The notes beneath the pieces were generated by a model. It was not told the origin of the DNA and made no database searches. It was given only the letters and a program-made list of their open reading frames with translations. Positions 33,601 to 46,967 of a stretch of 64,000 nucleotides of DNA are shown here, one piece after another. The stretch's first letter is position 1, and the number at the start of each line of letters is the position of its first letter. This stretch comes from Methylomonas sp. 11b (GTDB lineage: Bacteria > Pseudomonadota > Gammaproteobacteria > Methylococcales > Methylomonadaceae): the NCBI RefSeq assembly GCF_000515215.1, contig NZ_KI911557.1, positions 3,715,741 to 3,779,740 on the forward strand. The letters run 5' to 3'. The position numbers were made by a program, and so were the translations under genes.

Positions 33601-33710
33601 GGTTACTGTGTCGGTCCTCTCGCAACGATACGCTGTAAACCCCGCCAGGTCCGGAAGGAAGCAACGGTAGCAGCGGACTCGTGTGCCGGGATGTGGCTGG
33701 CGCAGTAGCC
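33601..33710 (+). ncRNA. ffs: 4.5S SRP RNA
   Basis: The core CAGGTCCGGAAGGAAGCAACGG and the following CGTGTGCCGGGATGTGGCTGG are the conserved SRP-RNA apical loop sequences that bind Ffh. The flanks pair: 5' GGTTACTGTGTCGG with 3' ...GCGCAGTAGCC (allowing G-U), giving an RNA of about 110 nt, as in E. coli. It lies directly upstream of dnaX, a common position. Exact ends are within a few bases. Confidence 0.93.
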
Positions 33711-44394: not shown

Positions 44395-44946
44395 ATGAAA
44401 ATGGCTCAAGATGCCGACAATCTTATCTGGATCGATCTGGAAATGACAGGCTTAGATCCTGATAACGATCTGATCATCGAAATCGCCACGGTAGTGACCG
44501 ACAAAAATCTGCAAATCCTGGCCGAAGGGCCGGTGATGGCGGTGCATCAATCCGACGCGGCGTTGGCGGCAATGGACGACTGGAACCAGCAGCATCATGG
44601 TCAATCCGGCCTGATTCAGCGGGTCAAAGACTCCAAAATCGATGCTGCCGAAGCGGAGGCTCGCACCATCGCGTTTTTGCAGCAATGGGTGCCCGCCAAA
44701 ACCTCGCCGATATGCGGTAACAGCATTTGTCAGGATAGGCGGTTTTTGTATCGCTACATGCCCAAATTAGAAGCGTTTTTCCACTACCGTAACCTGGATG
44801 TGTCTACCGTGAAAGAATTGGCCGCGCGCTGGGCGCCGCAGTTGAAGGACGGCTTCAACAAGCAGGCCTCGCACAAAGCCTTGGACGACATTATCGAGTC
44901 CATCGAAGAACTGCGGTACTACCGGGAAACGTTCTTTAAATTCTGA
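44395..44946 (+). CDS. orn: Oligoribonuclease
   Basis: 183 residues. DEDDh exonuclease: [14 protein letters not shown] (Asp, Glu), the middle Asp in [18 protein letters not shown], and the final [14 protein letters not shown] (His, Asp). It degrades 2-5-mers such as pGpG. The first ATG is at 44395; ATG 44401 (MAQDADN) is equally credible. crcB begins at the A of its TGA overlap (TGATG). Confidence 0.95.
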
Positions 44947-45653
44947 TGTTGCAATTGTTCGCGGTCGCACTGGGCGGCGCCATCGGCTCCATGTTGCGCT
45001 ATCTGGCCTCCAGCGGGGTGTATTTGTGGCTGGGTAGGGGCTTTCCTTACGGTACGTTGACTGTAAATTTGCTCGGCTCGTTTCTGATCGGGCTGATGAC
45101 TGAAGCACTGATCCTGCAAAGGCTTGCGATAGCGTTGGAATACCGGACCGCGATTATCGTCGGAGTGATGGGCGGCTTTACCACCTTTTCCAGCTTTTCC
45201 CTGGAAACTTTCTATTTGCTGGAACAAGGTCAAATCAGCAAGGCCGGGCTAAATATTGTCGCCAGCGTGTTTGGGTGTCTGTTGGCCGTATGGGCCGGTC
45301 TGGCGCTAGGCAAAGGGTTATTTTTCTATTCGCAAGGTACATTCCGCCTGTTCGATTGGCCGTTTCCTTATGCCTTGACGCTGGTTAATGGCATCGGCGC
45401 GTTTTTGATCGGCATCGTCGCCACGGTGTTGATGCACAAACTGTCCGTTTCAATAGAATACCGGGCTATTTTAGTGACCGTGCTGATTGGTTTATTCATC
45501 ACCCTGTCCGGCTTATATTTAATTCTCTACCTGCTGGAAAGCGGCCATTCCTTTGAATCGCATATGGGGGCAATGCTGACCGTTTTTTTGAGTAATGTCG
45601 TTTTTTGCACTGCTGCGCTTTGGCTTGGCTTGTGGCTGGGCAAGCAGGTATAG
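44946..45653 (+). CDS. crcB: Double-length CrcB-like fluoride channel (fused, second half degenerate)
   Basis: 235 residues, about twice a normal CrcB/Fluc subunit (about 125). Residues 1-125 are a complete subunit with four predicted membrane segments, pore Asn41 (LTVNLLGSF) and the GGFTTFSSF motif at 76-84. Residues 137-235 form a second copy with three segments: FPYALTLVNGIGAFLIG (Asn148) aligns with 33-49, EYRAILVT (Arg173) with EYRTAIIV, then ITLSGLYL in place of TTFSSFSL. The second copy has lost TM1, and the Phe box (F81, F84 become L187, L190) and Thr79/Ser83. Fluc subunits work as antiparallel dimers; removal of one segment would invert the second half in the membrane. The TGATG overlap with orn implies coupling. 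Activity is inferred. Confidence 0.9.
   Translation: MLQLFAVALGGAIGSMLRYLASSGVYLWLGRGFPYGTLTVNLLGSFLIGLMTEALILQRLAIALEYRTAIIVGVMGGFTTFSSFSLETFYLLEQGQISKAGLNIVASVFGCLLAVWAGLALGKGLFFYSQGTFRLFDWPFPYALTLVNGIGAFLIGIVATVLMHKLSVSIEYRAILVTVLIGLFITLSGLYLILYLLESGHSFESHMGAMLTVFLSNVVFCTAALWLGLWLGKQV

Positions 45654-46967
<1,314 letters not shown>

Follow-up and report, generated by a model that had tools for sequence, protein, structure and literature searches.

In the bacterial Fluc (CrcB) fluoride channels each pore is built from the first phenylalanine of one subunit and the second phenylalanine of the other (PMC4969038, PMC5417652; this and the other literature cited here is taken from the portions of the articles consulted). 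Transport by Fluc-Ec2 is abolished by F80L and by F83L (PMC5636608), and F82L is given as a loss of activity in Table 4 of PMC8315801. For the Fluc-Bpe mutants F82I and F85I of 2015, permeation is retained according to the same table, whereas it is severely inhibited according to PMC4969038. Fluc pairs of Lactobacillus and Staphylococcus have three of the four central phenylalanines and the M. tuberculosis pair has two, with Met and Trp at both of the second-Phe places and a function that is untested (PMC5636608). In the eukaryotic FEX proteins there is one phenylalanine per domain and both lie in pore II, the loss of tolerance being 11-fold for F96A and 1.4-fold for F330A (PMC5417652). Engineered Fluc fusions had minimal activity when parallel and were active when antiparallel (PMC3755343), and the same article, of 2013, places fused Fluc genes in the eukaryotes. 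A 2024 review (PMC11139923) describes bacterial Fluc genes as single or paired; the term "fused" did not turn up in the portions consulted. Judging by titles and the openings of abstracts, we found no natural bacterial fused Fluc in the open-licence literature, and an earlier mention elsewhere is possible.

The window, that is, the whole stretch of 64,000 nucleotides of Methylomonas sp. 11b that was analyzed, contains a crcB gene at 44946..45653 on the forward strand, which starts with ATG and encodes a protein of 235 residues (P0001) with seven predicted membrane helices. The protein matches the Pfam family CRCB (PF02537) in two stretches with 111.1 bits (4e-32; curated cut-off 32.9), is named fluoride efflux transporter by NCBIfam, and has its nearest named protein matches in Methylomonas. 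Directly upstream, on the same strand, is a gene for an RNase_T-family exonuclease (44395..44946), which we take to be orn. Base A44946 is common to the stop codon of the exonuclease gene and the start codon of crcB (TGATG, 44944-44948), suggesting that the two genes are translationally coupled. The seryl-tRNA synthetase gene serS (45696..46967, forward strand) also adjoins single-copy crcB genes in related bacteria. Elsewhere in the window, two Rfam group II intron matches, RF02003 (23458-23597) and RF00029 (25268-25415), lie on the forward strand about 2 kb apart, and a bacterial small SRP RNA (RF00169) was found at 33609-33705.

A preliminary description of this DNA had proposed a single-chain channel and had named beforehand, as a refutation, an independent second crcB partner gene. 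The search of the genome (one contig, 5,412,720 bases) with the PF02537 profile at E <= 0.001 gave this single locus and no second CrcB partner, and a heterodimer with another CrcB was rejected for that reason. No match to a CLC family protein or to a fluoride riboswitch was found in the genome, and an Rfam scan with gathering scores listed no riboswitch in the window either.

The same description had divided the protein into two homologous CrcB halves, and this division is confirmed by BLASTP, which aligns the halves from residues 19 and 126, respectively, with 34% identity (37/110; E 7e-16), as well as by the two Pfam stretches. For the ungapped segments 22-56 against 129-163, and 64-94 against 170-200, the score was reached by 0 of 20000 shuffles each. 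The residues listed there (N41, R67, GGFTTFSSF at 76-84, FPYALTLVN, EYR at 171-173, I185, L187, G189 and L190) are all present as written. Half 1 (residues 1-123; 44946..45314) is a complete four-helix CrcB in which the canonical pore residues are present: R18, T37, N41, F81, S82, F84, E87 and N103. It has both the TM3 signature GxxGGxTTFSTFxxE, in the form GVMGGFTTFSSFSLE, and the TM2 asparagine, N41, and its TM3 break motif GGFTTFSSF (45171..45197) carries the two Phe-box residues, F81 and F84. The solved Fluc sequences found match P0001 within residues 2-121. Half 2 (45321..45650) is homologous to residues 19-123 of half 1 and has three helices, predicted to be inverted. It keeps N148 (45387..45389), the equivalent of the pore residue Asn41, and fails the TM3 signature: its degenerate TM3' motif GLFITLSGLY (residues 182-191; 45489..45518) retains T186 and S188, has L187 and L190 at the Phe positions and contains no Glu, the equivalent of Glu87 falling in a one-residue gap of the BLAST alignment. 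In TM4', N217 (45594..45596) falls in a five-residue gap by BLAST and matches the polar-track residue S107 when TM4 is aligned from its C-terminal end.

The first membrane segment is missing from half 2, as had been stated. Homology begins at residue 19, and the best placement of residues 1-21 ahead of half 2 scores 16 against a self score of 99. Hydropathy in 19-residue windows shows three peaks in half 2 and is flat, 0.04 to -0.01, across residues 121-145, and therefore neither a TM1' nor an inversion helix is visible; the profile of the whole protein is consistent with four helices, a gap and three helices. The absence of a linker helix of the FEX type, also claimed beforehand, thus holds, TM1' being missing instead. 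The junction (residues 124-140; 45315..45365) is homologous, from about residues 126-129, to the loop that follows TM1 in half 1, and the family consensus at this place, SSGVYQWLGRGFPY, resembles the loop sequence SGGVxRWxGWxFPY. Taken together, these observations indicate that the second copy of a duplicated gene lost TM1 and little else. The helix number is odd (4+3) through loss of a segment, again as proposed, and from this count we infer that half 2 should insert into the membrane upside down.

In the order to which Methylomonas belongs, a CRCB match was found in 286 of 311 genomes. We read 179 genomes, mostly the best-scoring CRCB rows of the order and not a random choice, and 156 of them contain a gene of fused length (at least 95 residues beyond half 1), so that the homologue search suggested in the preliminary description yielded a conserved family. 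Fused length was observed in 123/124 genomes of family f1, 2/2 of f3, 17/20 of f4, 10/10 of f5, 3/3 of f6 and 1/1 of f7, and in none of the single-copy families f2 (0/17) and f8 (0/2; 0/19 together). By inference f1 is Methylomonadaceae-like, f4 Methylococcaceae-like and f2 Cycloclasticus-like. Two of the remaining three f4 genomes have short genes, and in the third the gene is interrupted by a contig end. In a class-wide sample the fused profile matched in 299 of 369 genomes; among the matches listed, only G000 and G034, both of the same order, are stop-free through the profile, the others ending by position 193 of 235, and none of those listed from outside the order covers half 2 without a stop. 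Among the matches listed for named genomes (80 loci), at least five near full-length ones belong to Methylococcaceae (two), Methylobacter, Methylococcales and Methylocucumis, and the Cycloclasticus match is single-copy. Additionally, 23 pattern matches in a viral collection gave none that was confirmed, and none of 17 plasmid records reached 80% query coverage.

From 208 extracted proteins we left out 44 with fewer than 95 residues beyond half 1 and one over-length protein with a masked stretch. After removal of exact duplicates and addition of metagenome proteins, 272 distinct fused proteins were obtained. A frameshift or assembly artefact was rejected on account of these 272 proteins, which come from genomes as well as metagenomes. 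Half 2 as a stand-alone gene was also rejected: a search with half 2 gave three matches among 62 candidates, all of them pieces of fused proteins on short contigs. Class I, defined by at least 50% identity to P0001 and few gaps, comprises 224 of the 272, and its half 2 is well preserved. The remaining 48 form a mixed group, in which some members from f3 and f5 preserve a large part of the motif and many have a half 2 of similar length and strongly altered sequence. Class II proteins combine a highly degenerate half 2 with unchanged pore residues in half 1.

Our tentative preference is for pairing of the two halves within one chain, which would give a passive Fluc/CrcB channel for fluoride export; the pairing, the identity of the working pore and fluoride as the substrate are all deduced from sequence features. 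According to this proposal, one crcB gene duplicated in tandem and the second copy lost TM1; with 4+3 helices, half 2 would then pack antiparallel on the half 1 to which it is fused, restoring the TM3-TM3 crossing of Fluc with neither a partner gene nor a linker helix. Fluoride would pass mainly through the pore centred on half 1 (T37, N41, F84, E87, N103, S107), the pore centred on half 2 being dead, since it lacks TM1' as well as counterparts of T37, F84 and E87. An odd helix number is a requirement of such a pair, and the search of the genome, which revealed no further CrcB, no CLC and no fluoride riboswitch, agrees with it. The Phe box argues against it: since half 1 contains both phenylalanines and the two corresponding positions of half 2 are occupied by Leu, each pore within the chain would consist of one Phe and one Leu, and leucine at either position abolishes transport in Fluc-Ec2 (PMC5636608). 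Some precedent for one-Phe pores is provided by FEX, with F96A and F330A, and by the paired Flucs of M. tuberculosis. The preliminary description had expected the same end as in FEX, with one working pore; of this, the two halves in one chain, one of them degenerate, agree with what we observed, but no pore within the chain has two phenylalanines. The pore pattern is not that of FEX, because F81 and F84 are both in half 1.

A pore with two phenylalanines is obtained in one arrangement only, between chains. Two seven-helix chains would be inserted in opposite orientations, their first halves forming a double-barrelled Fluc dimer with two complete Phe boxes, and half 2 would be an inverted, non-conducting accessory that might pair with its counterpart in the other chain. 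We regard this as a serious possibility, if a less probable one; the two arrangements are close, with pairing within the chain slightly ahead. Pairing between chains would require dual topology of a seven-helix chain, and by itself it explains neither the loss of TM1 nor the conservation of half 2 residues in class I described below. That no pore within the chain satisfies the two-Phe rule (PMC5636608) could also mean that fluoride conduction has been lost and that the protein serves some other purpose. We consider this very unlikely: half 1 has kept the canonical fluoride-pore residues, the genome yielded no further fluoride exporter, and the review PMC11139923 states that no additional role is ascribed to any Fluc.

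For the favoured pairing within the chain, the contribution of half 2 to the working pore would be L187, at the usual Phe place, and Tyr191, one helical turn on and on the same face. The equivalent of Tyr191 in Fluc-Ec2 is Ser84, which enters the pore from the partner subunit (PMC5636608). It is a guess, and a doubtful one, that the single-chain pore has given up one fluoride-coordinating phenylalanine for Leu187 and passed its job to Tyr191. If it were true, the protein would be a natural channel of a kind, with both phenylalanines lost from one domain, that Last et al. in 2016 reportedly found to be biochemically intractable. The distribution of phenylalanines between the halves probes whether the Fluc pore truly requires two of them.

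Residue conservation bears on each of these arrangements. In half 1, R18, T37, N41, G76, T79, T80, F81, S82 and F84 are invariant in the 272 fused proteins and have the same state in the singles, and G10, G11 and G14 of TM1 are present in all 63 thinned class I rows. Such a half 1, like a single CrcB at the pore and TM1 positions, fits pairing between chains, and so does the invariance of F81 together with F84. If only the pore centred on half 1 works, F81 would face the dead pore and be expected to drift, yet it is Phe throughout, unlike its counterpart in FEX. Half 1 of the fused proteins is, however, partly relaxed, E87 being Asp in 27/272 and S107 being Asn in 20/272, which speaks against pairing between chains. 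In half 2 the residues of its own pore are gone: Thr or Ser at position 144 (the T37 equivalent) and an acidic residue at 193 each occur in 0/272, and Phe at 190 in 2/272. The phenylalanine that half 2 would lend to the pore of half 1 is kept in 24/272, the genome-derived ones being from f1, f3, f5, f6 and f7. Loss of own-pore residues with the lent Phe sometimes kept is what a pair within the chain with one working pore would leave.

Moreover, half 2 has conserved positions of its own. In class I, N148 and Y191 are present in 224/224 and N217 in 222/224; T186 is found in 224/272 and S188 in 246/272 of all fused sequences, and position 191 is Trp or Tyr in 31 of the 48 fused proteins outside class I. 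Among 17 congeners half 1 had a dN/dS of 0.054 and half 2 one of 0.066; among the closest 11 the values were 0.032 and 0.061, respectively (saturated pairs were left out, 134/136 pairs being kept for half 1 and 113/136 for half 2). In class I, half 2 is thus important, if less constrained than half 1, and this purifying selection, with the conservation of N148, T186, S188, Y191 and N217, supports pairing within the chain. It also makes it improbable that half 2 is a disappearing vestige and that the fusion serves only to carry half 1, given a class I half 2 with dN/dS of 0.06-0.07 and invariant residues. The evidence in favour of a vestige comes from the degenerate half 2 of class II and from three short forms: half 2 is reduced to a 38-residue tail in G024 (L036, L202), G040 of f4 (L051, L203) consists of half 1 with an 11-residue tail, and G182 (L199) is half 1 with 0 extra residues. 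No half-2 match was found in the stretches read around the G182 and G040 loci. Class II, G040 and G182 are likewise in line with pairing between chains, and relatives that keep the half 1 pore residues unchanged while half 2 is degenerate or absent weigh against pairing within the chain.

Of 38 singles, 35 show no difference in K+R between the two membrane faces; in class I the difference averages -2.15 and is positive in 0/224. This shift favours pairing within the chain and weakly suggests an N-out/C-in orientation. EmrE, a dual-topology protein, also has a bias of -2 (PMC3962082), so the class I bias is weak, within the dual-topology range, and in this respect counts against that pairing. 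In the other 48 fused proteins the mean is -1.40, with 5 positive and 12 at zero. The bias is near 0 in 17 members of f4 (10 at zero), which supports pairing between chains, whereas the mean for 12 class II members from Methylomonas is -1.67 and not zero. The classes may differ, class II, where half 2 is degenerate, fitting pairing between chains better and class I, where it is conserved, pairing within the chain.

Mean-field DCA of the 224 class I sequences (Neff 69 at 80%) gave no signal between the halves above the area share, 51 of the top 100 pairs joining half 1 and half 2 against a 50% share of all pairs, which lends pairing within the chain no support and does not decide between the arrangements. 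The TM3-TM3' core block was above 77% of shifted blocks, and the three top-ranking pairs lie within half 1 and connect S15, G77 and S83. The pair G110-G189 (z 5.6) and the class-I-specific changes of half 1 at positions 75, 77, 106, 110 and 113 are suggestive only as a sign of pairing; Fluc-Ec2 and Bpe also have Gly at the equivalent of position 110.

Of the 36 Methylomonas genomes with a match, 19, among them the present one, encode a protein with 62-100% identity to P0001, 16 encode a fused protein with 37-46% identity to it, and G182 has a single. The 19 close loci lie between orn and serS in 18 cases, only orn being seen in L085, and these neighbours were found at 0/10 distant loci of the genus with enough flank. 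In L095-L101 and L103-L105 the distant fused crcB (37-46% identical), away from orn/serS, takes the place of the version in the window, as if one crcB version had been replaced by another. As serS adjoins crcB in 19/19 singles of f2 and f8, class I appears to stand at the old crcB-serS place. Some f5 genomes (L046, L052, L039) have a closely spaced pair of fused crcB genes on opposite strands, and in one of the two the first Phe of half 2 is kept in L046 and L039 and not in L052. In the half-1 tree (110 rows, 123 columns; 38/107 inner branches open) the fused rows are spread over several positions and singles occur within the class II side; the tree consequently gives no demonstration of a single fusion. 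One fusion event would be inferred from the common junction and length.

The origin of inverted-repeat membrane proteins from dual-topology dimers is an old question, for which the known Fluc steps are single genes and gene pairs in bacteria and, in eukaryotes, natural fusion via capture of a linker helix, according to the sources cited above. Here a fusion with predicted inversion by helix loss is spread over one bacterial order, and because this order also has single-copy relatives, degenerate fusions and forms that lack half 2, the steps can be tested one by one.

Compared with the homodimers Fluc-Bpe and Fluc-Ec2, half 1 is a full representative of the family, possessing the TM3 signature, the pore Asn, the triad Thr/Glu/Asn and both phenylalanines; the difference is a second half in the chain that has neither TM1 nor phenylalanines, giving 235 residues against about 125. 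The heterodimeric Flucs La1/La2 of Lactobacillus likewise consist of two diverged CrcB units from a duplication, whereas here no partner gene was found and two of the four phenylalanines are present, both in the same half, Leu taking their places in the other. The two-domain fusions of DUF606 (PMC3962082) share the route of duplication and fusion to an antiparallel two-domain membrane protein, but belong to another family, and here the inversion would be by deletion of a helix. Yeast Fex1p and the other FEX proteins also have two Fluc halves in one chain, one of them degenerate, with an antiparallel order expected. FEX inverts by an added linker helix (4+1+4), and the Methylomonas protein would do so by the loss of TM1 (4+3); the better-kept half is C-terminal in FEX and N-terminal here; and FEX has both phenylalanines in pore II, one from each domain, whereas here half 1 has both and half 2 has none. 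The fused CrcB, the halves of which should sit antiparallel, would thus be a bacterial equivalent to the fused fluoride channels found in yeast and plants, differently built and differently worn down.
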